Below, in pieces: positions 41,359 to 61,855 of a DNA stretch of 64,000 nt (position 1 is its first letter; each line of letters starts with the position of its first letter). The translations under genes and the position numbers were made by a program. This DNA comes from Caldisericia bacterium (lineage in GTDB: Bacteria > Caldisericota > Caldisericia > JAAYUI01): NCBI GenBank assembly GCA_017999835.1, contig JAGNLA010000004.1:1-64000 (forward strand), read 5' to 3'. Below the pieces are notes generated by a model. It made no database searches. It was not told where the DNA came from and saw only the letters and a list, made by a program, of their open reading frames with translations.

Positions 41359-41494
41359 TTTATTTACTTCACAACTACATTTGAGAGCTATCTCGAGATG
41401 TTAAAATGATTTTACCATACCTTAATGTATATTTTTTCTTTGTTAATGTTAAACACATCATAATCACAGGTAAGTTTAACTATTGTAATATTAC

Positions 41495-41621
41495 TATAAT
41501 AAACACAATCAAAAGCAGGAAAGGAGGCTATATCTCCAAAAAAGACCTAAACACATAGTGGCATGAAAAAGCTGGATTGGAACTTGAAAACGCTGATAGC
41601 CTTAAATTAAGGAGGATTTTT
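41495..41621 (+). promoter_or_regulatory. -10 box and structured leader of the thioester-domain gene
   Basis: TATAAT at 41495-41500 (weak -35) would start a transcript near 41507. The leader has GGAG/CTCC and GGCTAT/ATAGCC pairings, and the Shine-Dalgarno AAGGAGG lies in the palindrome CCTTAAATTAAGG (41600-41612). It matches no riboswitch I know. Confidence 0.35.
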
Positions 41622-42662
41622 ATGAAAAAACTGTCTATCGCATTAATGACACTTGTATTTGCACTTTGCCTAGTTGTTCCAGCTTTGACTACGGTGGTTG
41701 CCGCAGAAATCAAGGAATATCCGTTGTTTGCTGGAAAGTCGGCAAAAGTTGGAAAGATTCAGGTCACAAACGACTCGATCAATTTGAAAATTAAAGTTTT
41801 AGTCGAAGACCCCTGGGTTCTTGTAGGTTCACCACACATAGAGGTCGCTGCAACAGTCGATGGAATACCACAAAAGAATGGGAATCCGATACCAGGGCAG
41901 TTCACCTACACCGGCAAGGATGTTTCCATACCTCTTGGCAGTTGGTCAGCAGGCAAGGAGTTGATTGTTGCAGCTCATGCCGTCGTTAAAAAAAGAACCG
42001 GCTATAACCCGCCAAGCCTTGTTGACTTTGCCAATGCGTTGCCGGCACAGGCCAAAATGACAATCTCCTATCCCGGAACAAGCAGCTATTTCAAGGCTAC
42101 TTTCTCATCCGGTTTGTCAGGCACATTCAACTCATGGTGCATAGATACCGACCACCCAATTGCTCCAAAAACACTGTACACAGTCAATGTTTACTCGTCA
42201 TACGAATCCCTTCCGGCTGGGACAGTTTCTTATCCTGAGAACTTTGACCTTGTCAACTGGATTTTAAACCAGAAGTTCATTGGCAAGGCATCCACCTGCA
42301 AAGGCACATACACATGGGGCGACATCCAGATTGTAATCTGGACACTCCTCGAAAGCACGGCGCCAGGCGCATCCACCGGTACAGTAGGACCTTGGGAGCA
42401 GTGCAGGGTCGACGAGTTAGTCAGCGCTGCAAAATCCAAAGGTGAAAACTACACTCCTCCATGTGGCGGCGTCATCGCCACCATTCTGGTACCAACAAAT
42501 AACGCTCAGGTTTTAATCGTAGAAACAACAGCCGCTGCTGTTAATGTAGAGTGCGTTCCAGTTTATGGATCAGATGAAACCGCATGGGCCGCAGAGTCCG
42601 AAGGCAATCACGCTTTCCCGGGTAAAAACTGGGCCACATACGTTCATTACACAGTTCAATAA
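41622..42662 (+). CDS. Secreted protein with candidate thioester domain (TED-like)
   Basis: The 346-residue protein has a signal peptide (LMTLVFALCLVVPALTTVVAA). An N-terminal beta domain runs to about residue 145. A region at about 150-330 looks like the thioester/TQXA domain of Gram-positive adhesins: SWCID at Cys173, YTVNVYSSYESLP, DLVNWILNQKF and YTWGDIQIVIW with Gln236. In TED adhesins a Cys and a Gln of such motifs form an internal thioester that binds host or surface targets covalently. There is no LPxTG or membrane anchor, so attachment to the cell is unclear. AAGGAGG precedes ATG 41622. Confidence 0.72.
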   Translation: MKKLSIALMTLVFALCLVVPALTTVVAAEIKEYPLFAGKSAKVGKIQVTNDSINLKIKVLVEDPWVLVGSPHIEVAATVDGIPQKNGNPIPGQFTYTGKDVSIPLGSWSAGKELIVAAHAVVKKRTGYNPPSLVDFANALPAQAKMTISYPGTSSYFKATFSSGLSGTFNSWCIDTDHPIAPKTLYTVNVYSSYESLPAGTVSYPENFDLVNWILNQKFIGKASTCKGTYTWGDIQIVIWTLLESTAPGASTGTVGPWEQCRVDELVSAAKSKGENYTPPCGGVIATILVPTNNAQVLIVETTAAAVNVECVPVYGSDETAWAAESEGNHAFPGKNWATYVHYTVQ

Positions 42663-46533: not shown

Positions 46534-46818
46534 TCAGAAAGATAATGGGCTCAATATCACGCCTTTGAATAATTGCACAGGTACATCCAGCAAAAATGGC
46601 CTGCCGTCCAGAAACACTATATCAGAGCCAATCTGAAGCTTGACGTGTTTGGCACACTTTGAACAATACCTGTCAAACTCTATCACCCTTCCGAGGTGAA
46701 GCTGTCTCATCTTTTTTGGTCTGCCAAGCTTTTTTGGTTCAACCCGAAAAACTCCCTCAGATTGGCAATCCTCCATGTCTACCACTCCAAAAACCTTGCC
46801 CCACTCAAAATTGTTCAC
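46534..46818 (-). CDS. Small protein of unknown function with one CxxC
   Basis: The 94-residue product from GTG 46818 has GGGAGG four bases upstream. It has a basic segment (PKKLGRPKKMRQ) then RYCSKCAKHVKL and a beta-rich end. With a single CxxC it could be half of a zinc ribbon or bind metal as a dimer. A terminator-like hairpin separates it from the phage cluster upstream, so it may not belong to that cluster. No family was recognised. Confidence 0.55.
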   Translation of the reverse strand: MNNFEWGKVFGVVDMEDCQSEGVFRVEPKKLGRPKKMRQLHLGRVIEFDRYCSKCAKHVKLQIGSDIVFLDGRPFLLDVPVQLFKGVILSPLSF

Positions 46819-46828
46819 TCATCCTCCC

Positions 46829-46868
46829 AAAAATGTTTTGGGCATGAATCTATGAAAATCCATGCCCA
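46829..46868 (-). terminator. Candidate terminator of the phage-like operon
   Basis: Read on the minus strand, TGGGCATG pairs with CATGCCCA (46861-46868 and 46839-46846) around a 14-nt loop, followed by AAACATTTTT. It lies just after the last gene of the cluster. Confidence 0.55.
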
Positions 46869-46884
46869 TTGCTGAACTTTCATC

Positions 46885-47595
46885 CTATTGCGAGATTGGC
46901 GCCGTGATAAGCTTGACCTTCAGCCTTGGCTGGGTCAGAGAATTCCAGTACCCCCAGACTGAAAGCCCTACTGGCGGGATCATGTGTTTTGCAATCGGAA
47001 TGTTCACGCTCCAGTTTTCGGTTTCCAGCTGCACCGGTGCGCAATACGAGTCCTGGGCAAACTCCCAGGTGGTGGCCATCGGTGTCACAGGTTTGTCTTC
47101 CCAGCCAAGAAACATTGTGCTGGTGAAGTCAAACCTGGGGCTATGGAAATCTGATAGCTGGTAGAGTGTTGTTGGATTGTACGTTGCTGTATGGAGAACA
47201 ACCGAGCCGACAACGGCTATGGCGTCCTGTGGAGGGATTGGCGGAGTGGCAGGATCGGGGAAGGCGCTTATCGAGATGCCATAAACATTGACCAAGCCAG
47301 TAACTGTTATCAGTTTCTGCCATTGGAAACTCTGTGACATCACCCCTGAAAGCCAGGGTCTTGGAACGTGTTCTCCATCGGTTGTTCCAGAGTTTGTTAC
47401 GGACAAGAAAGCGTTGCCGATGTTTTCAGACATTGCCTCAAGCGTCGCTTTGGTGTTGTCCGACCAACTTACAGCCTCGGCAACAGCCAAATCAAAGGTT
47501 TCGCCGATTTTTCCATCAGCCCAGCCGACAAACTCCCGCAACATGCCAAACGTTTCCCTGCATTGCGCCCATGCTACCAAAGCCTGACCTCTCAT
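46885..47595 (-). CDS. Phage-like appendage protein of unknown function
   Basis: The last gene of the cluster encodes 236 residues. A helical N-terminal part (WAQCRETFGMLREFVGWADG, then FDLAVAEAVSW) is followed by a beta-rich C-terminal part. It sits where tail fibre or tip genes usually lie and has a helical start like the 47592 product. No enzyme motif is seen. Starts overlap the upstream gene by 4 bases. The function is inferred from position only. Confidence 0.6.
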   Translation of the reverse strand: MRGQALVAWAQCRETFGMLREFVGWADGKIGETFDLAVAEAVSWSDNTKATLEAMSENIGNAFLSVTNSGTTDGEHVPRPWLSGVMSQSFQWQKLITVTGLVNVYGISISAFPDPATPPIPPQDAIAVVGSVVLHTATYNPTTLYQLSDFHSPRFDFTSTMFLGWEDKPVTPMATTWEFAQDSYCAPVQLETENWSVNIPIAKHMIPPVGLSVWGYWNSLTQPRLKVKLITAPISQ

Positions 47596-48317
47596 GCGTC
47601 CCTCCAGGTTATCAGGTTGTGTGCCTGGTCAGACTCCCAAACACACGCTGCCGACCACCACTTGCCTTCTGGCAGGCATTGGACGTCAAACCTTGTGTAA
47701 TGTGTATTTTCACAGTATCCAATCCTTTCAAAGTATGGATAAAGTCCAGACACGTGCGATGGTGGTTGCCCCGATGGGTTGGCATAGGCTATCCAGCAAT
47801 AGGGGCTGTTGAAGTGCACACCGAACGATCCGGGAATTGGTGCCTGATCATCTGCACATATCGGCACTGACCAGCCCGAAACCTCTCTTTGAAGCTCTTC
47901 AGAGGCGTTGTACTGCTTCATCGTCATGGTTATCCCTGACGGGACATACGAACCAGCCAGGCCCAGACAATGGATTCTACCTTTTCCAGAGATGTAGCCT
48001 ATGTCAATATTGCCATTCTCCTGATTTGGAATGGCAATCTGAGCCGTACCATCCGATCTTCTCGGAATGGCCGCATGGATATGAAGGTACATCGGACATG
48101 CAAAGGGATTGATCTGGGCAAGAGCTTCATTGACCGTATTTGTAGCAAACCCATCGAGGTTTTCCAAAATCTGGGCAATTTGTGAAGCAAAATCTGCAAA
48201 TCTTTGCGTGCAGGAGTAGGCTAAGCCACTACCAGCCGGTTCGATCTGGTTGTTCATCTCCACCCAGATCCTCGTGCATTCAGACAGAATCTGAGCCATG
48301 ATGCTGGAAACTGCCAT
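47592..48317 (-). CDS. Phage-like appendage protein of unknown function
   Basis: A 241-residue product with an N-terminal helix (SSIMAQILSECTRIWVEMNN) and a beta-rich, Trp/Tyr- and Cys-containing C-terminal region (PYCWIAYANPSGQPPSH; YCENTHYTRFDVQC). It overlaps both neighbours. Aromatic-rich beta structure and location fit a tail tip or receptor-binding protein, but no family was recognised. Confidence 0.6.
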   Translation of the reverse strand: MAVSSIMAQILSECTRIWVEMNNQIEPAGSGLAYSCTQRFADFASQIAQILENLDGFATNTVNEALAQINPFACPMYLHIHAAIPRRSDGTAQIAIPNQENGNIDIGYISGKGRIHCLGLAGSYVPSGITMTMKQYNASEELQREVSGWSVPICADDQAPIPGSFGVHFNSPYCWIAYANPSGQPPSHVSGLYPYFERIGYCENTHYTRFDVQCLPEGKWWSAACVWESDQAHNLITWRDA

Positions 48318-48598
48318 CAGCTCCCCCCAAGAAGACTTGCCGTTTGAATGCTTGTTTGGTTGTCGTGCTGCTCTTTTGTGCTGTTTCTTTGACCGTTTTC
48401 ATCCCAGCTTTCGAGGATAACAACCGTCCAGCTACCGTTTCCACAATACCATGCCTGTAATGTCATGGAACCATTCACTTTTTCAGTATCGACATTTTTA
48501 CAATGGCACAAGCTTCTTACTGGCCAGCCAAATCCTGGAATTGAAAGCAAAAGGTCGCAAGCCTGGGCATAAATGTCAAGTTTTTCCTGTGTTGTCAT
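48317..48598 (-). CDS. Small phage-cluster protein of unknown function
   Basis: A 93-residue product starting MTTQEKLDIYAQACDLL, with LCHCKN and a Trp-rich strand (LQAWYCGNGSWTVVIL), then a polar tail. A GGGGGGAAC site precedes the start. It is one of three short unknown genes between the tail tip gene and the operon end. No motif identifies its role. Confidence 0.55.
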   Translation of the reverse strand: MTTQEKLDIYAQACDLLLSIPGFGWPVRSLCHCKNVDTEKVNGSMTLQAWYCGNGSWTVVILESWDENGQRNSTKEQHDNQTSIQTASLLGGS

Positions 48599-48606
48599 GT
48601 TCCCCC

Positions 48607-49920
48607 CTAAACCTCTGTCAAAAAGATGCCGTCAAATCTTGTCACGCCACCATCATTTTCTGATGCTTGTCCATAAAGCCTGATCTGATAAGGTGAATCG
48701 CCCTGGCAAAGCACCCCAAGCCTGACCCATTTGCCGGAAAATGACGCCATGGGCTGCCCCTGGGTCACGTCCAGCGTGGTGTAAACCCCTGTTCCACTCG
48801 ACGGAATGATCTCTATCTTTGCCCTTTGGGTAGTGTTTACCCAGCAGCTTAGGAAAACGTCCCTTGGCGTGTTACAAGATATGGTCTGCTTTAAGTACCT
48901 AAAGCCTGTCTGTTCTGTATTTTCCAGCTGGACTGTCGAGTCGCCAAACAGCAACTGCTCGGATTGAGTGACGTTGGCCACACCTGCACCTTCGAGCTCC
49001 CAGGAATCTGGCAGAACCCCACTCCAGTTGAGGAATGCAGGATTTTTCAATCTCAAAATCCCGTATGAGCCATTCATTTTTTCAGCGTTCTCGGAAAAGC
49101 TGTAGAAAGTGTTTGATGCGGAACCTCCAACAATTACCGGCGTAGTCTCCTGTTTTGACTGATGCTGCTCGATGTAGCGATAGGTTGCCTTGACCACAGG
49201 GTCAATTTCTATGACGGCCAAACCTGAGTCGTGAGCGAAGAGCAAATTCTCATTTATCTGGATGGTTGTTGAGTTTGTAACCGACGCAACCGAACAAACC
49301 TCGTCCTGGGCTGATTGGCTGCCTTTAACCGTTATGCAGTCTCCAGCCTCAAAACCAACGCTTGACGATACAAGCAAGGTCGTTGATCCGACTTGAGCCT
49401 GTGCCGTTAGAAGTGTATTGCCTTTTATCACCGATCCAAAAACGACTTTCCCGTTCTCGTAATCGACAGTAAAATCAACGTTTTCTGTTTTGACTGAGCC
49501 GTTGACTGTCACAACCGGTGACGGGCTTCTCAACCAATCGGACAGACTGCTGCCTGTTGTGCCATGAACCGACTGATAAGTTCTGAAATCATCAGTTGCC
49601 AGCATCTCATCAGTCACCAGATAGACAAACATCTGGTCACATGCCAGCATGTTGACATCTGGCAAGGAGCCACCAGAAAAAATATGTCCAGACGCAAACC
49701 ACTCGTGTGGGCCAAACGATGACTCAATTTTCCCAAACACATCGAAGAAGTAGACCTGGATGCTGTTGTACGTCAAAGGTCCGACAGCCTGATGCGAAAA
49801 CACGCCTGTTTCTTGCGGCAGGTGCAACTCTGACACCAGACCGTTGCCCCAGCCCGCAGAAATGCTGTCTCGAAGCGTACCGCCTTTTACAGGCTGTATT
49901 CTAGGTGTAGATGGCAGCAT
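48607..49920 (-). CDS. Virion structural protein with carbohydrate-binding-like C-terminus
   Basis: The 437-residue product has N-terminal beta structure. At about residues 170-240 comes a small domain (VGFEAGDCITVKG; DEVCSVASV; ENLLFAHDSGLAVIEI) that also occurs in the capsid and tail-tube proteins of this cluster. The C-terminal 130 residues look like a jelly-roll (SWELEGAGVANVTQS; FRYLKQTISC; WVRLGVLCQGDSPYQIRLYG). It is probably a tail tip or baseplate-like part that meets the target surface. GGGAGG precedes the start. Confidence 0.65.
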   Translation of the reverse strand: MLPSTPRIQPVKGGTLRDSISAGWGNGLVSELHLPQETGVFSHQAVGPLTYNSIQVYFFDVFGKIESSFGPHEWFASGHIFSGGSLPDVNMLACDQMFVYLVTDEMLATDDFRTYQSVHGTTGSSLSDWLRSPSPVVTVNGSVKTENVDFTVDYENGKVVFGSVIKGNTLLTAQAQVGSTTLLVSSSVGFEAGDCITVKGSQSAQDEVCSVASVTNSTTIQINENLLFAHDSGLAVIEIDPVVKATYRYIEQHQSKQETTPVIVGGSASNTFYSFSENAEKMNGSYGILRLKNPAFLNWSGVLPDSWELEGAGVANVTQSEQLLFGDSTVQLENTEQTGFRYLKQTISCNTPRDVFLSCWVNTTQRAKIEIIPSSGTGVYTTLDVTQGQPMASFSGKWVRLGVLCQGDSPYQIRLYGQASENDGGVTRFDGIFLTEV

Positions 49921-49933
49921 TGTTTCCTCCCTT

Positions 49934-50434
49934 TCATCCTGTGAATTCTATTTCCCAGACGACAGTTTTTGCCACCTGGGATGTTTTTGACTCGTTGACC
50001 TGAGCAACAGAGAACAGCTGACCGGTAGCCAGAAACAACCCGACCTTTTTCCAGTTGAAGTTGAACTCAGGCTGACCGATGAAGTTGCTCACGACCATCT
50101 TTTTACCAACGCTGTCCACTTGCTCGCACATCCTGTAGGACACCGAACCGCCAAGGCTCGTGTCGTTTTTGTTCGGTTCTACCGTGCTGGTGGACGCCCC
50201 AAACTGCTCTATCTGAAAAATTGGTGCTACCAGTCTGGAGTTGCTTCTATTAACATTGCACAGCGCCGACACGATCGCTGATATGCCAGCGTTTGTTATC
50301 ATGTTTCCTATTCTTTTCCCATCAAAGCTGACCACGCCTTTGAGCCTTGCACCAAGCCAGCCTTCAAGTTGGCTTCTTTCAACAGACTCACAGGCTTGTG
50401 CCACATGTTTAAGCCATTCCATCATCCCTCCCAT
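49934..50434 (-). CDS. Phage tail-region protein of unknown function
   Basis: The 166-residue product is beta-rich with a short helical start (MMEWLKHVAQACESVERSQL), consistent with a small distal-tail or tip component. It overlaps the upstream hub gene by 13 bases. Starts at ATG 50434 (after GGAG) or at two ATGs directly after GGGAGGG (50425, 50422) are possible. No family was recognised. Confidence 0.58.
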   Translation of the reverse strand: MGGMMEWLKHVAQACESVERSQLEGWLGARLKGVVSFDGKRIGNMITNAGISAIVSALCNVNRSNSRLVAPIFQIEQFGASTSTVEPNKNDTSLGGSVSYRMCEQVDSVGKKMVVSNFIGQPEFNFNWKKVGLFLATGQLFSVAQVNESKTSQVAKTVVWEIEFTG

Positions 50435-52164
50435 TCGCCTGCTCCAAAGCCGCTTGCGTCAAATCCATAACCCCTGGGGTCAACCATGCAAGCAACAATC
50501 GATGTTATGCCCAGCTCCTGAGTGTGTTCTATCTTTCGAACCGAGTTGATAACATCGCTTGTTGATGAGTTTTCCTGCTCCAATTCTGCAATTCGCCTGA
50601 GGATGTCAGAAAACATCGATTGGTAGAGATTCGGGTCAAGGCTTGAATGGAGCTCCATCCGCCATGAGTGTGGAAGGATTTCGTGCACGACCTTGGTCAC
50701 TTTCACGCTTTCAGCCTGACCGAAACGCTCAAGATCGAATGACACAAGCCAGCCAGGTTTTGCTACTGGTGCAGAAATCCTCTCGCCATTTCGATATTTC
50801 CAGACAGCAAGCTTGCCTTTTGACGGTGGATCCTTGTGGCTTTGGAGCAGGAAATCTGCGTATTTGTAAAGCACCGACCAATCCTTGATGGCAGGTCTTG
50901 AAACCTTGGTCAGGTCTATCTGGACGCCATATTTTTCAACTGATTCTGCGTCTACATCTGAAATCAGCGAGATTTTCATCAGCCTTCGATAGGACACCAT
51001 GAACCCAAGCATTTTTGCTGACTGGTTTTCAAGATTAGGATTCGTGTAGTAGGAACCAAGGTTTGCCTGGCCTGTTACAGCGCCTTTCTGGTTGACCCCG
51101 TCGACCACGATGACGGTTCCTTTTGAAAGGTAGATATGTCCGCCGTTTGCATTGTCGTCGCTGTCATCCAGATAAACACAGTCGTAGTCAGGGATTATCG
51201 CTGTTGACCCTTGGCCGGTGACCAACATTCCGTTGTCCTGGTCAAGAAAGTAGGTTTTGACATAGTCAACACCGTCAACCAAACCTTCAGGCATCAATGT
51301 CTGCTTGCCTGACACATTCTGGCTGGAGCTACACGTCATGTTGACAAGCTTGCCGTTTTCGAGCAAACCATCGCCAGCGTCAAACACAGCAAAGACCTCA
51401 ATCTCCTGACATTTGTACCATATCGGGATACTTAAAGGGTATGCGTCGGTGCTGGTTGTTGCGTCAAGGTCAGCCAATGCTACATACTGCCTTGTTTTCC
51501 TCTGCGCTGCCGCCTCACCACCTTCCACCCAGACCCTGTTTGCCAGAGTGCTGTAGTCTTTCTCAAACCTGGTGGTTGCGCCTTTTGTTGTGTCGGCGTG
51601 GGTATCGGTGATGACAGTCTGCAGCACGTCCACAAACTCTGGTCCAAAGTAATGAACCTTGTTTGGGTCAACCTTCCAGCTCCACTGGGTCAGGTCACAG
51701 AGCGTCTTGAGGCATTGAGTCAGGGTTTGTCCGGAAAACTTCAAATCGACAATTGTTGAATTTTCCTCAACATTTGCAGTTGAGTGCCCAGGCAGGTATT
51801 TCTCCACCAGCGCTTTGTAGACATCAGAGGCAGCCCAGCCCGAGTAGTGGTCGTCAACAAACCGTAGTCCAGCCTCAGCCGACCAGTCGGTGGCAGTGAT
51901 TGCAAACCTTGCCCCGCCAACCTCGTCGGTTCGTTGTGGCTGCTGGTTTGTTCTGCCACCAAAGATTACGTTGCCGTCTGTATCGGTTACCACCAGCTCA
52001 GAGAAAGCCTTTGGCTCAATGCTCTGCTCCCAAACTGGGTTTATTACTGTTTCAAGAGTGCAAACAGCTGGTTCACCAATGCTGTGGCTGATTGTCAGCC
52101 TTGTCACCAGGCCAACAACTTCAACACCGACAAGCTTGACTGAATCAATTCCGCACAACATCAC
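50422..52164 (-). CDS. Phage tail hub / tip protein
   Basis: The 580-residue product follows the tape measure gene and has the make-up of a gp27/gpD-like tail hub. An N-terminal beta-barrel domain (VVGLVTRLTISHSIGEPAVCTL; FGGRTNQQPQRTD) leads to FVDDHYSGWAASDVYKALVEKYLPG and LTQCLKTLCDLTQWSWKVDP, which are hub-type motifs. A long insertion follows, then a C-terminal helix-rich end (ILRRIAELEQENSSTSDVIN). Position and motifs agree. It overlaps the tape measure stop by 4 bases. Confidence 0.72.
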   Translation of the reverse strand: MMLCGIDSVKLVGVEVVGLVTRLTISHSIGEPAVCTLETVINPVWEQSIEPKAFSELVVTDTDGNVIFGGRTNQQPQRTDEVGGARFAITATDWSAEAGLRFVDDHYSGWAASDVYKALVEKYLPGHSTANVEENSTIVDLKFSGQTLTQCLKTLCDLTQWSWKVDPNKVHYFGPEFVDVLQTVITDTHADTTKGATTRFEKDYSTLANRVWVEGGEAAAQRKTRQYVALADLDATTSTDAYPLSIPIWYKCQEIEVFAVFDAGDGLLENGKLVNMTCSSSQNVSGKQTLMPEGLVDGVDYVKTYFLDQDNGMLVTGQGSTAIIPDYDCVYLDDSDDNANGGHIYLSKGTVIVVDGVNQKGAVTGQANLGSYYTNPNLENQSAKMLGFMVSYRRLMKISLISDVDAESVEKYGVQIDLTKVSRPAIKDWSVLYKYADFLLQSHKDPPSKGKLAVWKYRNGERISAPVAKPGWLVSFDLERFGQAESVKVTKVVHEILPHSWRMELHSSLDPNLYQSMFSDILRRIAELEQENSSTSDVINSVRKIEHTQELGITSIVACMVDPRGYGFDASGFGAGEWEG

Positions 52165-54122
52165 ACACCTCGAAATTGAACAATGTCAAGCAGAGCCTGC
52201 TGCGCTTCAATGGCTGCCGACTGGGCTATTGCCTTGACCAGCTCGGAAAGCGATCCATTGTAGTCGCCAAGGTTGATGTTGAACTCCTGGTTTATCTGGA
52301 TGGCTCCTGAGCTTTGCAGACTTGATAGCGAACTGCCGGAGAGGCTGGAAAGACTTGACAATCCACTTGAGCTTTCACTCCCCTGAAGATATTCAAGCAG
52401 CAGCTTTGCTGTCTCCTCGGGGTAGGTCTCCCTAAAATTTGGATCAGCCAGGTTTGCATAAGGGCTGCCGTCAAGCTCTGCCATTCTCATGGTGACAGCC
52501 TGGTCTTTGTAGGTTTGAGCTGTTTTTGACAGTGCCGATTCAAAGTCCATCATGCTCATGTTAGAAAGCAGTTCGCTGGTGAACTGGACAGTTCCCCAGT
52601 CGCCACCAAGGCCAAGAAGCTCTGAAAACAACGGTTTTCTGCCGGTCTTTACCGCTTCTGAATTAGCTAGTGAATCCAGACTTAACTGAGACTGTTTTGA
52701 AACGTAGGTGTCCCATGCGCCTTCGCTCATCCCAAAAACATCTTCCAGCAACCCCATCATTTCTTGAATTCGTTCAGGAGTCCAGCCAAGCGTTGTCCCA
52801 CCATAGAATTCCTCGAATGAGCCCTTTAAACCAATGAGAGTGTTGGCAAACCCACCAAAGAGCTCCCATGCCGATTTGATGGCTCTGCCACTCTCAGTTT
52901 CCGGTACAGCCTGCATGCCTTCCCTGACGTCTATCGGTATCAGGTCACGGAACATGTTCATGTCGTACTTGGCGCTCAGTCCATACTGACCAATCTTGTT
53001 CCAAGAGTCGGATTTGATCATGGACATGCCATACTTTGCTATGAAGTCATCTGCAGAGAGATTCTCCCAGTCAAGCCTGGTTTCCACATCAGCCTGGGCA
53101 TTCCATGCAGGGAAGTTTTTCAGAGACTGGCCAATGACTCCACCATAAATTTGTTCAAGCTGACCAAGTGAATATTCCGGAGCAAAAGCCTGAAACCACT
53201 TTGTCTGGCTGATGGCTGTCGGCAAACCTGTGCCGGCATCTATCTGTGAACCTTCGAGTAGATCAGGGATGTTTGAGTATTGATACTTCTGGTCAAGGTT
53301 TTTCCTGAACTGCTCAAAATCCATTCCTGAGGTTGGCCATTTTACCACGGTGTCGTAGAATGCCTGATAATCCTGAGCTTTCTTATAATCTTCAAACTCC
53401 TTGCGAAGCGATTCCTCGTCAAAAGGCAAGACAGCCCCGGCCTCCATGTTCATCAAAAACTTTGATGAGATGTTTGGTCTGCCAAACAACCACTGGATAT
53501 TTGAAACCAAACCACTAAGGCTTAGCTGCGACGAGATATCAAGCTTGGCAAATATCGAGCCAATCTCGTCAACTCCGTTTTCAATCAGCCCTTTGCCAGA
53601 AAGCAACCCCTGCGATAATAGTTTTGCCAGCCTTGTTGTCCAATTTTTGGGATCTTCAACAGACAACGGACCGTACTTTGTTGGCGAGTGTACCTGAAGG
53701 TAGCCTGCAAGGATGTCGGAGATGTCGTAGGCTGCGCTTGAAACCTCGCTTGAACCGGCACGGAGCCCCTGGGCAAAAGCTCTTGCGGCGTTTGCTCCCC
53801 AACTTTGCATCAATGTTGACAGCTGCGAGAGAGAGCCAGTTGTTGAAGTCAGAATCTCAGTCCCCAATGATGACCCGATTTGTCTGCCTGTCTGGGAAAT
53901 CGTTTGTCCTGCCGAAACCAGATCGTTTGAAAACGTAGAAATTCTGGCACCAAGCGACTCGATGGAGGCTGCGACGGTTTTTATCTGCTTGTCAAAGTCC
54001 TGCGACCTTGCACCTGCCGAATCGGTTTGTCTTGAAAGCTCGTCAAGTTTTTTCTTCAGGCTCTCGATGACGGTACTTGCCTGATCGTTTGCCTCAACGG
54101 TTATTGTCAGCCTGTCAGCCAT
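52161..54122 (-). CDS. Tail tape-measure protein
   Basis: The 653-residue product begins with a coiled-coil (VIESLKKKLDELSRQTDSAG; LGARISTFSNDLVSAGQTIS), then RAFAQGLRAGSSEV and the tape-measure signature LQVHSPTKYGPLSVEDPKNW, and a long helical remainder ending LVKAIAQSAAIEAQQALLDI. By the rule of about 0.15 nm per residue, a tail near 100 nm is expected. It has no clear lytic domain. GGAGG precedes ATG 54122, 16 bases after the end of the frameshifted chaperone. Confidence 0.85.
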   Translation of the reverse strand: MADRLTITVEANDQASTVIESLKKKLDELSRQTDSAGARSQDFDKQIKTVAASIESLGARISTFSNDLVSAGQTISQTGRQIGSSLGTEILTSTTGSLSQLSTLMQSWGANAARAFAQGLRAGSSEVSSAAYDISDILAGYLQVHSPTKYGPLSVEDPKNWTTRLAKLLSQGLLSGKGLIENGVDEIGSIFAKLDISSQLSLSGLVSNIQWLFGRPNISSKFLMNMEAGAVLPFDEESLRKEFEDYKKAQDYQAFYDTVVKWPTSGMDFEQFRKNLDQKYQYSNIPDLLEGSQIDAGTGLPTAISQTKWFQAFAPEYSLGQLEQIYGGVIGQSLKNFPAWNAQADVETRLDWENLSADDFIAKYGMSMIKSDSWNKIGQYGLSAKYDMNMFRDLIPIDVREGMQAVPETESGRAIKSAWELFGGFANTLIGLKGSFEEFYGGTTLGWTPERIQEMMGLLEDVFGMSEGAWDTYVSKQSQLSLDSLANSEAVKTGRKPLFSELLGLGGDWGTVQFTSELLSNMSMMDFESALSKTAQTYKDQAVTMRMAELDGSPYANLADPNFRETYPEETAKLLLEYLQGSESSSGLSSLSSLSGSSLSSLQSSGAIQINQEFNINLGDYNGSLSELVKAIAQSAAIEAQQALLDIVQFRGV

Positions 54123-54138
54123 GAACCCTCCAAAAACG

Positions 54139-54680
54139 TCATTTTCTCTCCCGAAGCTTCATCTGCTTGAGTGCAAACTCGTGGATTGTGCAACGGATCA
54201 GCACCACCAGTGCATCCTGGTCGCCGAGTCCACCCGAGTTTGGCCACAAGCCAAGCGTTGCAGACTGGTTTGCCCAGAAGTAGGCTAAAGAAAGTTTTTC
54301 CGGCAAGTTGGAGGAGACGCCGTAAAGCGTCTCCTCGATTAGTTTTTTTCATTCTCCCCGTAGCCATTGAAGTCAAGTACCTCATAAAGAAGGATTCGGT
54401 AATAGACCGCATCCAGAGCAGCAATGTCGTCAGCTGTCGGCTCAATGGTCACCTCATCAAGAGTCAGGCTGTGACAACAGTTTTTCACAAACATCACGTT
54501 TGCGTCCGATGCCATCTCGAACTTGCCTGATTCTGATTGAGCAGATTTTGAATCCAGTATCTGCTTTTGAATCTGAACGAACTGGTTGTATCCAATGCCG
54601 TGAATCTCAGCCTTGTCGCCTTTTCTGGCTTTTGGATCTATCTTTGAAAACTCAACGGTCTTTGTTCTGACATAGCTCAT
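54139..54680 (-). CDS. Tail assembly chaperone, long form made by -1 frameshifting
   Basis: Two products are predicted. The zero-frame protein (54680-54339) has 113 residues (start SYVRTKTVEFSKIDPKARKG, end NGYGENEKN). A -1 shift at the heptamer A-AAA-AAC just before the stop continues for another 70 codons to 54139, through FWANQSATLGLWPN and IRCTIHEFALKQMKLRERK, giving 180 residues. This is the G/GT arrangement of phage lambda and most long-tailed phages, located between tail tube and tape measure as expected. The chaperones coat the tape measure during tail building. Confidence 0.88.
54311..54348 (-). promoter_or_regulatory. Programmed -1 ribosomal frameshift signal
   Basis: Slippery A-AAA-AAC (54348-54342), the zero-frame TAA stop directly after it, then a perfect 10-bp hairpin GAGGAGACGC/GCGTCTCCTC (54336-54327 with 54320-54311) beginning five bases past the slippery site, loop TTTACG. 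Confidence 0.9.
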
Positions 54681-55913
54681 TTAGAAACCGTACTTTCCAT
54701 TGACCAGCTCAACCTTTGCAGCAAAGCCCTGGGTGTCATCAAACACGGCCATGGCTTTCCACGACTGGGCAACCCTCTTGCCAACTTCAACCGGCACAGA
54801 GCAGGCGCTCATGTAGGCATTTGGCATGACAAACTTCAGGCTTGAGTGCTGGGTTGACGTGCCAATGTGGTCGCCGGTGGTCTCAATGACGCAGGCAAAC
54901 GGACGAGTGGTTTGTGAAACACTGTAGTCTGAGCCTGAACCGCCAAGGAATCTTTGCAAATCGACATCCGACTCAAACAAAGCCTCTGCCTCAAATGATG
55001 CCGAAACTCCGCCAGGCACGCCTTTTGTTGCAAACACACCAGACTGGAGCGTTCTCTCGTTACCCTCAAGACCATTTGAAAGGTCAAGTTTCATCGATGT
55101 TATTGCGCCTGATTTTTCAACGCCGTCAAACGAAACGGTCGTGTTGGATGTTGGCAGGGCGACAATCTCATCGTAGACCGGAGTCGAGATTGTGTTGTGG
55201 ATGCTGGTTTTTGAGCCTGTAAAGCTTGCGCGGATGGAAACAGGTTCCATCGACTGCCAGGCAAACGCCAGCGATTCGGCTGTCATGCCGGAAAACCTCT
55301 GGGCGCCTGAACCGTCAGGCGTTCCAAGGTCGAGTTCCCATGTGTAGCTTGGTAGGTCTGAAACCTCGGTGAACACATGTTTGTAAACAGGTGTCAGGTT
55401 TTCGGTGACTGTTGAGCCTGAGGTATGGCCGTAGAGCAAACCACCACCAGTGCCTTCAGCAGTGATGGTGATTTCGTTGCCCGAGATTGCTGAAATCCTT
55501 GCAAACTCGCATGTTGCGCCTGTGCCAATTGCAATCCAGTCACCTACTGCAAAATCTGTCGAATCAACCAGACCAATGTTCTTGTCTCCGGCAACAGCTG
55601 CCTGTTCAAGCGTGTCTGTTGCAGGACTTAGCGGAGCTTCTGTAACAGCGGTCGTTGAAACCAGCCCAAAAACTGAGTAAAGAAGTTGTCCGGTTGCCAC
55701 CGGATCGGCTGTAAGTTCTATCTCAGCCTTCTGGTTCCAGGCTTTCTGGACAACCTCGCTGCTCTGGCTTGAGCCTGCGATTCGAAACCTTCTTTGAATG
55801 TCGCGTCCTATTGACGGTGTTATCTTGAGAAGCTTCCAGAAAGTATCTGGAGCTTTTTCAGTTGCAAAAGTGGTTTCTTTGGCAAAGCCAAAGTAACTGC
55901 TTTCCCCTTTCAT
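54681..55913 (-). CDS. Major tail tube protein
   Basis: The 410-residue product lies directly upstream of the tail chaperone, as tail tube genes do. The N-terminus (YFGFAKETTFATEKAPDTFW) and RRFRIAGSSQSSEVVQKAW with GQLLYSVFG are typical of the phage tail tube family (Phage_tube type). Residues about 101-170 are an inserted beta domain with DWIAIGTGATCE, shared with the capsid protein. The C-terminal half is beta-rich (FSGMTAESLAFAWQ). One abundant protein forming the tail tube is expected. Confidence 0.82.
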   Translation of the reverse strand: MKGESSYFGFAKETTFATEKAPDTFWKLLKITPSIGRDIQRRFRIAGSSQSSEVVQKAWNQKAEIELTADPVATGQLLYSVFGLVSTTAVTEAPLSPATDTLEQAAVAGDKNIGLVDSTDFAVGDWIAIGTGATCEFARISAISGNEITITAEGTGGGLLYGHTSGSTVTENLTPVYKHVFTEVSDLPSYTWELDLGTPDGSGAQRFSGMTAESLAFAWQSMEPVSIRASFTGSKTSIHNTISTPVYDEIVALPTSNTTVSFDGVEKSGAITSMKLDLSNGLEGNERTLQSGVFATKGVPGGVSASFEAEALFESDVDLQRFLGGSGSDYSVSQTTRPFACVIETTGDHIGTSTQHSSLKFVMPNAYMSACSVPVEVGKRVAQSWKAMAVFDDTQGFAAKVELVNGKYGF

Positions 55914-55922
55914 TTTCTCCTC

Positions 55923-56336
55923 CTATAGATTCAAATCCACAGTCAAGCCGATGCTTGCACTGTGGATGAACTGATTTTCGTGGTAAAACGGCGTGCCGGA
56001 AAACTCTGTGTCGGTCAGCCTTGAGGTGTAGCTCTGAAGAAATGTCGGTTGCCTTGCCATTTCCTCAAGATGACCAACGATGTCGGCAAGCTGAAGATAT
56101 CCCTCATCTTTGCTGGCGTAATCCCGAACCAAAACCTCAATGGTAACAGGCACTTTTCGAGCTTTCCTTCCACCTATGGAAACCGGTGTTTCTGTTGCTG
56201 GTCCGACTGAGACCATGCAGCAAGGAAAACTGGTTGCCAAATGTTTTGGTCCAATTGAAACCTTCAGGTTTTCAAACCCTTCCTCGATGGCCGTTTTCGT
56301 GTTTTCAAGTATCTCCCTATATGGCGTTCCCATCAT
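55923..56336 (-). CDS. Phage tail-terminator / tail-completion type protein
   Basis: The 137-residue product starts at ATG 56336, overlapping the stop of the upstream gene (ATGA) after GGGGGG. It has an alpha-beta layout: ILENTKTAIEEGFENLKVSI helix, MVSVGPATETPVSIGGRK strands, DYASKDEGYLQLADIVGHLE and a C-terminal strand. The position between the gp10-like gene and the tail tube gene matches tail terminators (lambda gpU/HK97 gp10-11 region). The assignment rests on order and shape. Confidence 0.65.
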   Translation of the reverse strand: MMGTPYREILENTKTAIEEGFENLKVSIGPKHLATSFPCCMVSVGPATETPVSIGGRKARKVPVTIEVLVRDYASKDEGYLQLADIVGHLEEMARQPTFLQSYTSRLTDTEFSGTPFYHENQFIHSASIGLTVDLNL

Positions 56337-56707
56337 GACCCCCCAAGAATGCAGTCTTTGAACAGCTTGACGATGCCTGCTGCAAGGTTTGGTATGCACA
56401 TAAACGGCCTTGCCGGCATACGTTTTGTGCCGTTGTGGATGTAGCTTGCGTAAGGCAGGGAGTCGAGAACCTCACCGATGTGGACAAGGTTGCCTTCGGT
56501 TCTGACTTTCAACGCTTCAGACTTCATCTTGCCGGTTTTGACCAGGGGGCGGTTGCCCGCCCACTTTGGTCTGCCTCTTTGTTTGAAGTTCTCTTCAACC
56601 TCACCGGCAACAAACGCACCAGCCTGTCGCAACAAGGTTGGTCTGTCAGCAAGTTTGCCGGATGCCTGATTGAGCGTCTCCAGGTTGCTATCAAGCCTTA
56701 TGCTCAT
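56333..56707 (-). CDS. HK97 gp10 / Mu gpG-like head-tail joining protein
   Basis: The 124-residue product has the usual helical start and then RPKWAGNRPLVKTGKMKSEA, followed by YASYIHNGTKRMPARPF. The latter is the signature of gp10/gpG virion morphogenesis proteins (Y-x-x-x-x-x-G-T-x-x-x-P-A-R-P-F). Such proteins act at the head-tail connector. ATG 56707 overlaps the upstream stop. Confidence 0.82.
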   Translation of the reverse strand: MSIRLDSNLETLNQASGKLADRPTLLRQAGAFVAGEVEENFKQRGRPKWAGNRPLVKTGKMKSEALKVRTEGNLVHIGEVLDSLPYASYIHNGTKRMPARPFMCIPNLAAGIVKLFKDCILGGS

Positions 56708-57075
56708 GCAACCCACATTCCACCAGCAGCTTCGGTTTTTGGCTGGAGTCCTGCCTCTATCCTGCCGTCAGCGATTTTTTCCAGCAGCTCTTTGGCACGC
56801 TTTATCTTGGACTCCCAAACTCCGATACTGGCCTCAACACCTTCGCTGTAGAGCCACTCGAGCACAAGCCCAACCGAAAGATCGGTTGCCACCTGGGCGA
56901 CAAGCTCAGGTACAGGCGTTGGCACTGTCCAGTTTGTCCCAAGGTAAGCGTCGACGATGGCACAGGCTTTTGATATGGCTGTTCCAAGCGAAAATGCCGT
57001 TTCCGAGGAGTCTGGCACCAGCGCACTGTCTACGCCTTTGAGTTCGAGCCTGACTTTTTGTACGTCCGTGTACAT
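56704..57075 (-). CDS. Head-tail connector / head-completion protein
   Basis: The 123-residue helical product (GTAISKACAIVDAYLGTNW; LSVGLVLEWLYSEGVE; IKRAKELLEKIADGR) looks like the DUF1320/gp36-like or gp6-like adaptor that docks under the portal. The W-pair motif and the position after the capsid gene support this. GAGGTGAAG precedes the start, which lies inside the end of the small upstream gene. Confidence 0.72.
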   Translation of the reverse strand: MYTDVQKVRLELKGVDSALVPDSSETAFSLGTAISKACAIVDAYLGTNWTVPTPVPELVAQVATDLSVGLVLEWLYSEGVEASIGVWESKIKRAKELLEKIADGRIEAGLQPKTEAAGGMWVA

Positions 57076-57215
57076 GCCTTCACCTCTTCAAAATCCTGAC
57101 TTGTCTTGAGATACCCAATCTCCTCCTGGTTTTCAGTTGTAAAAACTTCGCCAGAAAGAGCTTTTCTCCAGCAGGTTGTGACCGAGCCGGAGAGCTTTTT
57201 GCAGACAAAAGTCAT
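57030..57215 (-). CDS. Small connector-region phage protein
   Basis: The 61-residue product from ATG 57215 shares one base with the capsid stop (TGATG) and follows GGTGAAG. Sequence MTFVCKKLSG then GEVFTTENQEEIGYLKTSQD resembles the small proteins often found between capsid and connector genes in tailed phages. It overlaps the next gene by 46 bases. The role is unknown. Confidence 0.55.
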   Translation of the reverse strand: MTFVCKKLSGSVTTCWRKALSGEVFTTENQEEIGYLKTSQDFEEVKACTRTYKKSGSNSKA

Positions 57216-58393
57216 CACTTCACCTTGAGGTTGTTGAGCACGACAACAGCATCCGGGTTTTCGAGTGCGCAATCGCACCTGATGGTGACAACAAAGTAGG
57301 TCACGCCTTCGGTTGCACGTCTCTCGGTCTCAATCTGGACATCCTGCTGGATGCCAAGAATGAGGTTTGATGTGTCACAAAGCATGGTGAATGTGCCGTC
57401 ATTTGTGACTTCAACGACTGCCTGCCCTAAAGTGTGGTCGTACTCGAGAGCCTCGGTGAGGTTGAGTGTTGTCGATGAAATGCTGGCAATTTTCCTGACT
57501 TCACAGGTGGCACCTGTTCCGATTGAAATCCAGTCGTTGGCAGTGAAGCCTGTGGCTGAAGCGACTTCGACGGCTGTGGCATCCTTGCTTGCAGCTGACG
57601 TAAGGGTTGATGAACCACCACTGGAGACGGCAACCGGAAGGTTTGACGGAAGCAGAGCACAAGAAGAGATTGGAACTCTGCCAAATGAGAGAAGTCCTTC
57701 GCCCGTAATCGCCTCGTCACCGAGAGGTGTTGTTCTGTTGCCGATGATGTCGACGAAATCCTGATACAGGTCATCGCTCATGACAAACCTGAGGTTTTCG
57801 CGGTTGCCCCTGTACTTGCTGGCAAGAGTCTTAATAGCCTTTGAGAGCTTCTCGGAGCTGACATAACGGTCGGAAAGAGTTGTGCAATCGATGACATGGC
57901 CATCTGCAACCGCTCTTGGGAACCAACCGGTGATCTGTTCCCAGATGTGGGTTTTGTCGATGGTATCGCCAACATCCTGACCCATCAGGTATGCGTATTC
58001 AAGCTGGTTACCGATCTGGTTTGCCACCATCCTCATCAGGTGGTCAGCAAAAGCTTCACCTTCGATGTTGTCCAGAAGGGCGTCATCGGCGATTGGCACA
58101 ATGGCTTTCATGTTCTTTGAGGCAAGAGTGATGTTTGTGGTTGTCACGTCATTGAAGCTGTTGCCGGCTGTGCCGTAGACACCAGGCCTCAAGACTTCTT
58201 CGCCAAGGCCAAGCCTGACCAGTTTCTTGGTGTTGCCCTTCATCCTCTCGACACGGGCGTTGTTTTTTAGAAACGATGCATCGATGATGTAGTCGATGAA
58301 ACGATCTGCATCCTCGGTTGACAATCCGACACGGTTTGCAAATGTGCCGGATGTGATTGCTGCTTTTGACAAAAGTTCTGAATTTCTAATCAT
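57215..58393 (-). CDS. Major capsid protein
   Basis: The 392-residue product has HK97-fold major-capsid character. N-terminal helices lead to RVERMKGNTKKLVRLGLGEE, then DDALLDNIEGEAFADHLMRM with QIGNQLEYAYLMGQD (spine-helix region) and VMSDDLYQDFVDIIGNRTTP. The C-terminus FVVTIRCDCALENPDAVVVL is typical of capsid P-domain ends. Residues about 263-330 form an inserted beta domain with DWISIGTGATCE, shared with the tail tube. It follows the protease/scaffold gene. The assignment is strong from order and motifs. Confidence 0.85.
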   Translation of the reverse strand: MIRNSELLSKAAITSGTFANRVGLSTEDADRFIDYIIDASFLKNNARVERMKGNTKKLVRLGLGEEVLRPGVYGTAGNSFNDVTTTNITLASKNMKAIVPIADDALLDNIEGEAFADHLMRMVANQIGNQLEYAYLMGQDVGDTIDKTHIWEQITGWFPRAVADGHVIDCTTLSDRYVSSEKLSKAIKTLASKYRGNRENLRFVMSDDLYQDFVDIIGNRTTPLGDEAITGEGLLSFGRVPISSCALLPSNLPVAVSSGGSSTLTSAASKDATAVEVASATGFTANDWISIGTGATCEVRKIASISSTTLNLTEALEYDHTLGQAVVEVTNDGTFTMLCDTSNLILGIQQDVQIETERRATEGVTYFVVTIRCDCALENPDAVVVLNNLKVK

Positions 58394-58417
58394 TATCCCC
58401 TCCCAATTTTTAAAAAA

Positions 58418-59110
58418 TTACGATAGCAAGCCGATGACTGACATCCATGGCTTTGTCGGCTCTGTTTGCCCAGACATCGCTTTTGTCTTTGTGAACCTTG
58501 CTTCGATGGCTTCCAGTCTTGCTCCGAATTCCTTGACCGACTTGTCCAGTTCCTCGCAGATGTCCATGAGTTTCTCGACAATCTCGGTTACAGCGTTCAG
58601 TTTCTCGGAAAAATCATCAACAAACTCCTCCGGAACGGTTCTTTCTACCTCATCGGCAGCCTTGCCAAACCATTTTCCAAACATCCCCATATCCTTTCCC
58701 ATGCCACAAACGAGCATGAAACCGGCATCATTGTTTGCCGGCTGGTCTACAACCGATACCTCGGCAATCGACATTTGTGTGATTACCGAAACCGGTTTTC
58801 CTCCCCGAATCTGCGTCTCCCTGTCACCAACCATGCCACCGATGGAAAAACCTTTGTAAATGCCAGATTTTATCTTGTCCCAGCACTCCATGTCTGTGAT
58901 TTCGGCACCGATTAGCAAACCTTTTTCAAGCATCACAATGTGCTTTGCCTTGCCAACAGTCTTTGACTGGTGCATCTCCCTGATGTTTCGCCATCTTGAA
59001 TACTCTGTCACAGCCTTTTCAAGCGCTTTCTTTGAGACCACCTCGTTCTCCTTGTCAATAGACTCGGTTGAGGCAAACCCCCAGACAAAACATTTTTCTT
59101 TTTCTCCCAT
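58418..59110 (-). CDS. XkdF-like prohead protease with scaffold-type C-terminus
   Basis: The 230-residue product starts FVWGFASTESIDKENEVVSK and has NIREMHQSKTVGKA and EVSVVDQPANNDAGF, the His- and Ser-region motifs of XkdF/HK97-type prohead proteases. After residue about 165 it is a coiled-coil (KLNAVTEIVEKLMDICEELD) like a fused scaffold. It should shape and then cut the capsid shell. ATG 59110 after AAAAGGGGG is preferred to the TTG just before. Confidence 0.8.
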   Translation of the reverse strand: MGEKEKCFVWGFASTESIDKENEVVSKKALEKAVTEYSRWRNIREMHQSKTVGKAKHIVMLEKGLLIGAEITDMECWDKIKSGIYKGFSIGGMVGDRETQIRGGKPVSVITQMSIAEVSVVDQPANNDAGFMLVCGMGKDMGMFGKWFGKAADEVERTVPEEFVDDFSEKLNAVTEIVEKLMDICEELDKSVKEFGARLEAIEARFTKTKAMSGQTEPTKPWMSVIGLLS

Positions 59111-59142
59111 CAAACCCCCTTTTCAAAAATCCCTTGCTGCTA

Positions 59143-60324
59143 CTACTCTTCCAATGGCATCAAGCCAATGCTTCTCCTGACTTCCTGGGCAGTCATGACC
59201 CCAGCGTCAATAAACAGTTTCTGAATTTGAGCGTTTCTCATCTCATCCTCAGCGTCCATCTCGTTGAACTCAAACCGGACGTTGTCAATGCCAAAACCTT
59301 TTTTGATGATGAGTCTTGTGATCCTCTCCGAGAGGAAACGCTGCCTTGGGCTGATGACCAGACTTTTAAAGTTTGCAAGCTGGGTTTCACCTGTCCCACC
59401 GCCCAGGTTGCCTGATTCGATGATTCCAAGCAGATGCGGTGGCACGCCGTGGGCAACCACCATCAGATCGCGGTTCGTCTTGCGAAATTCGGCAAAACTG
59501 GCTTCCTTTGGCGAGGTTGAGATGGGTTTAAGATCACCCGTTACATCCTTGGGGAGCTGGAGAATCATGGTTTTGTGAGGGTTCCCCTTGAGGTTTGAAA
59601 AGTATTCCTGCAAATCTTCCTTGTCCTTTGGCGTGAGCATGCCACCGGAAATGATCAGACAATACTGTGGCGAAGCGTTGTTATCAAAGAAGTTGATGTT
59701 GAAATCGCGCGCCATGAGGTCGCCCATGGTCGAACCAATGGCTGGAACAGAATCCGGCAGACCATAATAAGTTGAGGCAGGGTTGTATTTTGCCAGGTGG
59801 ATCATCTCGGAGAGCGGCATTCCTTCTTCATCAACAGCGCCAGTTTCGCCAAATCTTGAAAACTTCATCTTCTTTGCCCCACGAAGCTGGACAAAACCAC
59901 CATCCGAGGCAACCCTGACCGTGTGCGCCGGCACATGGTAGAGCCCTGTCAAAGAGCCAGACGGTTCCCTCGTCACCTCAAGGTAGGCGTTGCCCAGACA
60001 CTCAAGGTCAACCATCACCTGGTGGAGCACTTCGTCAAAACTGAAGTCTGGGTTGCACTTTGAAAAGAAAGACTCCAGTTTTTTTACATCCTCCGGGTCA
60101 GCGTCCCCAAACGCGACAAGCCGCCAGCCCTGCCCAACTGTGAACTGGGACTTGACCTGAACCGCCCTGTAGTAAACCTCGGATGTCTGGTAAAGCTCCA
60201 GTAACCTTGAAAAATTCAAATAGAGCGGCGGTTCGACAATCCCAGTCATTCCGCAGAATGGATCCTTTAGCTGCCTTGACTGCCCTTCCCTACCCCCAAC
60301 AAAATCAACATCTGCTTTTTTCAT
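59143..60324 (-). CDS. Phage portal protein
   Basis: The 393-residue product has portal hallmarks of the PBSX/HK97 type: EVYYRAVQVKSQFTVGQGW, LVDLECLGNAYLEVTREPSG-like MVDLECLGNAYLEVT, YHVPAHTVRV, HLAKYNPASTYYGLPDSVPA and the crown region GVPPHLLGIIESGNLGGGTGE. The portal forms the dodecameric DNA gate. GGGAGGGAG precedes the ATG, which overlaps the terminase stop (ATGA). Confidence 0.9.
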   Translation of the reverse strand: MKKADVDFVGGREGQSRQLKDPFCGMTGIVEPPLYLNFSRLLELYQTSEVYYRAVQVKSQFTVGQGWRLVAFGDADPEDVKKLESFFSKCNPDFSFDEVLHQVMVDLECLGNAYLEVTREPSGSLTGLYHVPAHTVRVASDGGFVQLRGAKKMKFSRFGETGAVDEEGMPLSEMIHLAKYNPASTYYGLPDSVPAIGSTMGDLMARDFNINFFDNNASPQYCLIISGGMLTPKDKEDLQEYFSNLKGNPHKTMILQLPKDVTGDLKPISTSPKEASFAEFRKTNRDLMVVAHGVPPHLLGIIESGNLGGGTGETQLANFKSLVISPRQRFLSERITRLIIKKGFGIDNVRFEFNEMDAEDEMRNAQIQKLFIDAGVMTAQEVRRSIGLMPLEE

Positions 60325-61855
60325 ACTCCCTCCCTGTTTCCCCCTATAAAATCAAGCGTCAGGCACGCTCCTCTGTTTCCAAGCGACACTGCCATCTCAA
60401 AAGCGTCGATCATATCGTCATGCCTGCCTGACGGAAACTCCACAAGCTGACCAATAAAATTCTCATGATGGCTTGCTACCAGCACCTTGCCGTTTTCAAA
60501 CAACGGTTGAAGGGCTTTTATCCTGGATTCCTTCGGTGCGTTTGGCCTGATACCAACAACCGGAATCCCACCCTTAAGCTCCAGATGCTCGATGAGCGCT
60601 CTCTGATAGGCAACATCCTCAATGCCAACAAGCAACGGTCGCCACTGCGTCACCTTGTCCCTGATAACCTGGGCTTGCCTTGCAAAACCAAGTTTGTCCA
60701 CAAACAAATCCAGCAGGAACCATTTGTCTTCATACTTGCCAACAACAGCAAGCGCAAAAGAGTCAGCCTTGTCCGACTTTGATATGGCAAGGTCGCAACC
60801 GATGTAAATCGAAAGCAATTCTCTGGGAGGCAACTCTTTCCAGATGTGAATCCATTCCCTTTTAAACACCCTGCCTGAAAAAAATCTGATATCGTTTTGC
60901 TTTTCGCGGTCAAAAAACGTTTGCCCCATCATAAGTCGCTCAAGTAGTAACCGGTCAATGCTCCATTGCTCCTGCCACAAAACCTCGCCTGGATCGGATT
61001 TTTCCACCCCAAGGAGTCTGCCATTTCTAAACCTGAAAAAACTGTCAATTGGCTGACCCTGTGCAAGAGCCTTTTCAAAGTTTTCAGGATACCTGATGAT
61101 TGCTCTCTCAACCGTTCCAGACCAGGCTGGGTCGGCAATGAGTCTGCCATACAAATCCTCTGGGTGTTTCCTTGTACCGATGACAAGCATCTTGGTGTCT
61201 GGAACCGACAGGTTCATCAAAGACCCGGCAAACCAGTCCCAAACCTTTTCTCTTTGGTCTGGTGAGCTGGAGTTTTGGTCATCGATGATGTCATCACAGA
61301 TGATCCAGTCAAAATGCATGCCGGTTATTCCTGCATCGATGCCTGTTGCAAAAATTGACGGTTCACGGCTGTTATTGCCTTCAAACCTAATTTTTGTTGC
61401 TGAAGGTCTGCCGTCAAACTTGGGTAAAAGACCTGCATCAATAAGATTTCTTGCACATTTTGTGGTTTGAGCCAGGATATTTGAAGCAATATTTTCGGTT
61501 TTTGAAATGATCAAAATTCTTGAACCAGGCTGCTTTTTGATGATTGACAAGACACCAAGTACACCGAAAACCGTTGTCTTTCCGTGAGCTCTTGGAGCAA
61601 GATGAACTTTTCTGCTCCAAGGTTGGTCGAAACTTTTCAGCCACTGTTTTTGGTGCGGGGAGAGGTCAAGATTCAGACATCCGGCAAGCTGATCCCCGGT
61701 TTCCCCAAAACCAGCATCCTCCCATATTCGATCAGTAATCTGGCCGGATCTCAGATATCTAGCTCTCCATCGATTCTGTCGGCCTAGCGGACGCTCAACC
61801 AGCCCCCGGCAAGTTGCAACGCCATGTTCTCAGCTCGTTTGATGTCCCCTTCCAT
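60321..61855 (-). CDS. Terminase large subunit, reading frame interrupted near the 5' end
   Basis: The main frame encodes HLAPRAHGKTT (Walker A-type), WIICDDIIDD (Walker B) and a nuclease part with IGCDLAISK, GIEDVAYQRALIEHL and RHDDMIDAFEMA, the acidic triad of terminases. This frame is open back to 61830 but has no ATG, GTG or TTG before Walker A. A short frame from ATG 61855 (MEGDIKRAENMALQLAGG) joins it by a -1 shift, or by one more G, in a G5 run at about 61802-61808. The joined product would be 511 residues, a normal length. No small terminase gene is seen. The promoter at 61873-61900 lies just upstream of ATG 61855. Confidence 0.85.

Follow-up and report, generated by a model that had tools for sequence, protein, structure and literature searches.

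The first 64 kb of a contig from a Caldisericia bacterium (assembly GCA_017999835.1, contig JAGNLA010000004.1, here C8, 139,922 bp) carry a siphophage-type set of head and tail genes, all on one strand (46534-61855, minus), which raises the question of whether a dying prophage, an active phage or a particle domesticated by its host is encoded there. This whole 64-kb stretch is referred to as the window. It belongs to a genome of 1.89 Mb in 28 contigs (G000) and was compared with the four other genomes of its family (G001-G004), which represent another genus, hereafter the sister genus, and are Caldisericota metagenome-assembled genomes (MAGs). An initial annotation of the sequence had described the cluster as resembling a gene transfer agent (GTA), and this description was supported by the conservation of the locus, the purifying selection acting on it and the presence of unlinked lysis genes. 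The cluster is probably the structural (head-tail) locus of a GTA, domesticated from a siphophage before the two genera split and vertically inherited.

The whole cluster was collinear with that of the window in the four sister-genus genomes, and the three genes on its right-hand side (869, 187 and 1533 amino acids in the window) were found in the same order and orientation in all four, with an identity of only 33-52%. When 61 genomes were searched with the portal protein, it was detected at 62% identity in every other genome of the family and elsewhere at best marginally. A capsid profile matched 5 of the 54 Caldisericota genomes, exactly those of the window family, and none of the other 49. 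Neither an integrase or att sites with a larger prophage in the relatives, nor absence of the cluster from all of them, was observed. A neighbouring DUF4388 gene was considered as part of the element and rejected, as its family is a host one, represented across several families of Caldisericota; therefore, the flank was taken as host DNA.

Between the two genera, protein identity was 77% for GyrB, 72% for the capsid, 62% for the portal and about 50-53% for the large terminase (TerL), and therefore the divergence of the cluster is about that expected of inherited genes. In a tree of TerL with 35 viral homologues, the six sequences of the family formed a single clade (support 100/100) that branched as the hosts do. 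Mostly vertical inheritance and co-diversification with the host, by which GTAs are recognised (PMC9662315), were thus seen in the one family sampled.

Two differences between genomes were noted in addition. The sister genus carries, at the left edge of its cluster, a gene for an OLD-type ATPase (L015:1801-3651; dS about 1.0), matched in only three of its four species, which is outside the conserved set and possibly a defence gene. Two further phage portal matches were found in G002 (L022, L023; G002:C15, C109) and were absent from its sister species; in contrast to the conserved cluster, they are likely to belong to ordinary prophages.

Selection was measured among the four sister-genus species, which are about 90% identical in DNA. 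Pairwise ratios of non-synonymous to synonymous substitution (dN/dS) were 0.04-0.12 for every cluster gene tested, and were low for the capsid (0.049) and the portal (0.064) as well as for TerL (0.045), the tail tube (0.075) and the tape measure (0.079). The dS values of the cluster genes (0.19-0.61) were in the same range as those of the flanking genes. A GTA would be expected to show such purifying selection on its genes for packaging, head and tail.

A second copy from the window genus, hereafter the congener, was present in IMG/VR as a contig of 15.7 kb (L042/L203), with a DNA identity of 76-77% across its head half. The 16 genes tested were all collinear with the window cluster, and amino acid identity was 92% for the capsid, 87% for the portal, 80% for TerL and 44-70% for the tail-end genes. 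The dN/dS between the two copies was 0.04-0.26 where dS was estimable. Although catalogued as viral, this contig may represent a cellular locus that is inherited vertically.

The claim of the initial annotation that integration, repression, replication and lysis genes are missing held for the cluster, within which profile searches gave no match to these families, but lysis genes were present elsewhere in the genome. The single match in G000 to the N-acetylmuramoyl-L-alanine amidase family PF01510 lay on another contig (C6:137375-137761). The lysis cassette on that contig comprises three genes, encoding a 99-residue coiled-coil protein in which a membrane segment was read from the sequence at the C-terminus, a 235-residue amidase and a 134-residue holin (LLH, superfamily 6; PF09682, 3.5e-13; phrog_608), and is set among host genes, for example those for a PEGA-domain protein and for triosephosphate isomerase, the latter identified by its sequence. 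Orthologues of the 99-residue protein and the holin were adjacent in G001 and G002, where they were also unlinked to the cluster (dN/dS 0.041 and 0.066). Among the 54 Caldisericota genomes, the holin was present only in G000, G001 and G002, all at least 90% complete; it was undetected in G003 (74% complete) and G004 (69% complete) and in all 49 genomes without the cluster. Therefore, the lysis module tracks the cluster. Full endogenisation, often over several loci, is another mark of GTAs (PMC9662315), and here the head-tail genes are on C8 and the lysis genes on C6.

The place of the amidase differed by genus. The sister-genus cluster ends with an amidase gene (PF01510, 1.3e-18; dN/dS 0.10), whereas the window cluster has none and the gene is found in the unlinked cassette. 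As the two amidases are only 33-34% identical, a move and a replacement are both possible. In the sister genus alone, a gene between those of the portal and the protease encodes a 96-residue protein with a membrane segment (L015:16357-16647, with equivalents in G002-G004; dN/dS 0.12), which is a possible extra holin.

The head-to-tail set on one strand was real, with matches for TerL, portal, protease, capsid, adaptor, neck, tube, tape measure and fibre, so that genes derived from Caudoviricetes and able to form a tailed particle, as required of a GTA (PMC9662315), are present. The features, in the direction of transcription, are the following.

61900-61873, minus: promoter-like site TTGACT-16-TACAAT, overlapping a dyad at 61889-61872.
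60321-61855, minus: terL, large terminase (phrog_38, 6.5e-82), start ATG at 61855; ATPase and nuclease motifs intact downstream of a frame slip.
59143-60324, minus: portal (PF04860, 3.4e-36), 62% identical to G001-G004 and 87% to L042.
58418-59113, minus: S78 prohead protease with a C-terminal scaffold-like region (PF04586); encoded by two genes in the sister genus.
57215-58393, minus: major capsid protein, HK97-type, with an inserted module of ~75 residues (phrog_1623, 4.2e-63; PF05065).
57030-57215, minus: small gene, 61 residues, conserved in the congener.
56704-57075, minus: head-tail adaptor, Mu Gp36-like (PF07030, 5.9e-9; phrog_195).
56333-56716, minus: neck or tail completion protein, HK97 gp10-like (phrog_26, 2.2e-10).
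55923-56333, minus: 136-residue protein, putative tail terminator by position, conserved in all relatives.
54681-55913, minus: tail tube protein (PF18906, 6.3e-14).
54107-54680, minus: tail assembly chaperones G and GT, with a -1 slip site AAAAAAC at 54348-54342.
52161-54122, minus: tape measure protein, 653 residues (phrog_6435, 8.5e-8).
50422-52164, minus: 580-residue protein, probable tail hub by position and length, conserved in all relatives.
49934-50434, minus: protein resembling the N-terminus of a tail-collar fibre (weak matches to PF12571, 0.0099, and phrog_5417, 3.8e-5).
48607-49920, minus: 437-residue tail-tip protein, containing the module inserted in the capsid and tube.
48317-48598, minus: 93-residue tail-end protein, fast-evolving, 44% identical to the congener.
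47592-48317, minus: 241-residue tail-end protein, conserved in relatives.
46885-47595, minus: 236-residue tail-end protein, conserved in relatives.
46839-46868, minus: terminator-like hairpin.
46534-46818, minus: 94-residue protein, last gene of the cluster, conserved at the equivalent position in the congener.

The tail module was intact down to its frameshift signal, the heptamer of which is kept in all six relatives. The AlphaFold model of the probable hub had a mean pLDDT of 36 and was unusable for assigning a fold. The hairpin that had been taken as the boundary of the cluster exists, but the conserved 94-residue gene comes after it, and therefore the cluster was extended from 46885 to 46534. 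A hairpin also lies at the equivalent place in the congener, although its sequence differs, and in both copies the hairpin precedes this last gene.

Codon use was host-like, as had been stated, with a GC3 of 0.53 in the cluster compared to 0.49 in the host. None of the features of a temperate prophage (integrase, repressor, replication genes or att sites) was found in or beside the cluster; no direct repeat above 10 bp flanks it, no tRNA gene is next to it (the only one of the window is at 379-454), and no small terminase was recognisable within it. The ~75-residue capsid insert recurs in the tail tube (55398-55631) and in the tail-tip protein (49204-49425), and was also found in a 3024-residue open frame of G002 outside the cluster (G002:C140:96093-96332, L040).

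The broken terminase start reported by the initial annotation was confirmed. Compared to the intact gene of the congener (L042:64-1605, 513 amino acids), the reading frame of the window terL shifts by one base within a run of G (61803-61807). As TerL is intact in the congener and in G001-G004, and the rest of the window gene is open, the slip is either recent or an assembly error; a phase-variable site was a further candidate.

The promoter proposed upstream of terL corresponds to a genuine match, but such matches are common (18 found compared to 11.4 expected). The 18-bp dyad that it overlaps (TATAGTA-N4-TACAATA), upstream of the head-tail operon, is also present upstream of the lysis cassette of G000 (G000:C6:137018-137035). 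The exact dyad was found at three sites of this genome, and weaker matches (1-2 mismatches) were about as many as in a reversed control. The dyad is located upstream of terL in the congener too, and in G001 and G002 in the opposite orientation with two mismatches. The third exact site (window 41481-41498) is upstream of the gene for a secreted 361-residue protein (41577-42662, plus), which is a possible further member of the regulon. A perfect palindrome, TATAGTA-N4-TACTATA, was noted upstream of an apparent hydrogenase-like operon (L240:8502-8520; G000:C26:200502-200519).

Gene content, vertical inheritance, purifying selection and the co-occurring unlinked lysis cassette are thus what can be read from the sequence, and we infer random packaging, regulation by the dyad and transfer. 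A host regulator would act at the common dyad and, in a fraction of the cells, induce the head-tail operon together with, in the window genus at least, the lysis cassette. In a cluster that lacks a small terminase for the recognition of a packaging site, TerL would fill the heads from the host chromosome. The length of a tape measure protein is related to that of the tail, and the 653 residues of the one encoded here would correspond to long-tailed particles with a tail of roughly 100 nm. Holin and amidase would then release the particles, and chromosomal DNA would be delivered to kin. The evidence leans, with reasonable but limited confidence, towards an independent domestication older than the split of the genera, with the head-tail operon and the lysis cassette forming one regulon under a common operator and with an endolysin gene that has changed loci.

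These properties were compared with those of known GTAs, whose published attributes (PMC9662315) also include three that belong to experiment: mostly random host DNA inside the particles, a head too small for the full gene set, and delivery of the packaged DNA to other cells. RcGTA and its relatives in Alphaproteobacteria (Rhodogtaviriformidae) are similar in having a one-strand cluster of ~15 kb with terL, portal, protease, HK97-type capsid and siphophage tail genes, vertical inheritance, and genes scattered over several loci, unlinked lysis genes among them (PMC9662315, PMC10883770, PMC11841831). They belong to another phylum, and their g1 encodes a small terminase (PMC7947584), whereas none was found in the Caldisericota cluster; the likeness lies in common phage protein families. 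As the small terminase of RcGTA has lost specific DNA binding (PMC7947584, PMC11841831), the absence of such a gene from the cluster fits, and does not show, random packaging of host DNA. The Brachyspira GTA (VSH-1/BhGTA, Brachygtaviriformidae) is likewise non-alphaproteobacterial, phage-derived and kept across a genus (PMC9662315); it resides in an unrelated host phylum, and the likeness is one of description. Desulfovibrio Dd1, Methanococcus voltae VTA and Bartonella BaGTA are independent domestications of phages that package host DNA, and their putative small terminases are without a DNA-binding domain (PMC11841831). For these three, particles and packaged host DNA have been proven, whereas the Caldisericota candidate is known from genomes alone.

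Several observations weigh against a GTA. The evidence is genomic throughout. The left flank of the cluster is not common to both genera, and the family is small in the collection, with five genomes, all MAGs where their records are named, two of them only 69-74% complete and with no holin detected. In the window assembly, terL has the frame slip near its start, by mutation or assembly error. The dyad was not found at the holin locus of the sister genus, and random intergenic pairs shared an equally good 18-mer in 18 of 1,466 trials (about 1%), which is of moderate significance; therefore, the presence of the dyad at both operons is suggestive and not proof. Finally, the side chains of TerL contain 3.07-3.11 carbons compared to 3.12 ± 0.12 in viral homologues, so that, for TerL, the only protein compared, the bias of RcGTA-like proteins towards cheap, low-carbon amino acids was not seen.

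The main rival left is a use of the particle other than DNA transfer. A domesticated particle kept for another job, for instance the killing of competitors by a headed particle or the delivery of a fixed cargo, would agree with the fast evolution of the tail-end genes (44-70% amino acid identity in the congener compared to 80-92% for terL, portal, protease and capsid), as target recognition predicts, and the packaged content is not readable from the sequence. However, the portal and the ATPase and nuclease motifs of TerL belong to the most conserved parts, so that selection acts on DNA packaging, and the cluster contains no recognisable gene for a toxin or a cargo. We regard this explanation as unlikely.

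If the window genome carried a prophage that is defective or in decay, this would account for the slip in terL and for the absence of genes for an integrase, a repressor, replication and a small terminase. Decay would push dN/dS towards 1, with losses differing between lineages, whereas every gene except terL is open and the same stripped set is found in two genera, at one locus, with dN/dS of 0.04-0.12. This explanation is largely refuted and has very little probability.

Equally improbable is a temperate phage of Caldisericota that is still active and has integrated repeatedly at a single hot spot: phages do reuse attachment sites and one copy is catalogued in IMG/VR as a virus contig, but dS equals that of the flanking genes, TerL branches as the hosts do, integrase, tRNA and att-like repeats are missing, no viral contig larger than the cluster contains it, and the portals of prophage type in G002 do not occur in its sister species. 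Neither a dying prophage nor a hot-spot phage accounts for the conservation of the locus, for the low dN/dS and for lysis genes that are unlinked and yet co-occur with the cluster.

Ordinary siphophages share protein families with the cluster (PF04860 portal, phrog_38 TerL), the nearest matches being Streptomyces phages and IMG/VR contigs, but they are distant from it. The closest phage portals were only about 31% identical, long TerL matches 31% or less, and capsids 37-47% in parts. Viral contigs other than the congener shared at most two or three genes, and no phage with the whole set was found.

The best reading is therefore a candidate GTA new to the phylum Caldisericota and independently domesticated; no report of one in this phylum was found in a non-exhaustive search of the open-licence literature. 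GTAs are tamed virus shells that ship host DNA between bacteria, and only a handful of lineages, mainly Alphaproteobacteria, have gene clusters defined for them. According to a 2024 review (PMC11841831), sequence homology, synteny or gene content do not yet allow new ones to be located definitively. Here, comparative evidence, namely the same locus in two genera, purifying selection and a co-occurring unlinked lysis cassette, singles out a candidate in a poorly known phylum. It would offer a concrete system in which to test how often phages become machines for sharing DNA, and what selects for them in bacteria with small genomes.

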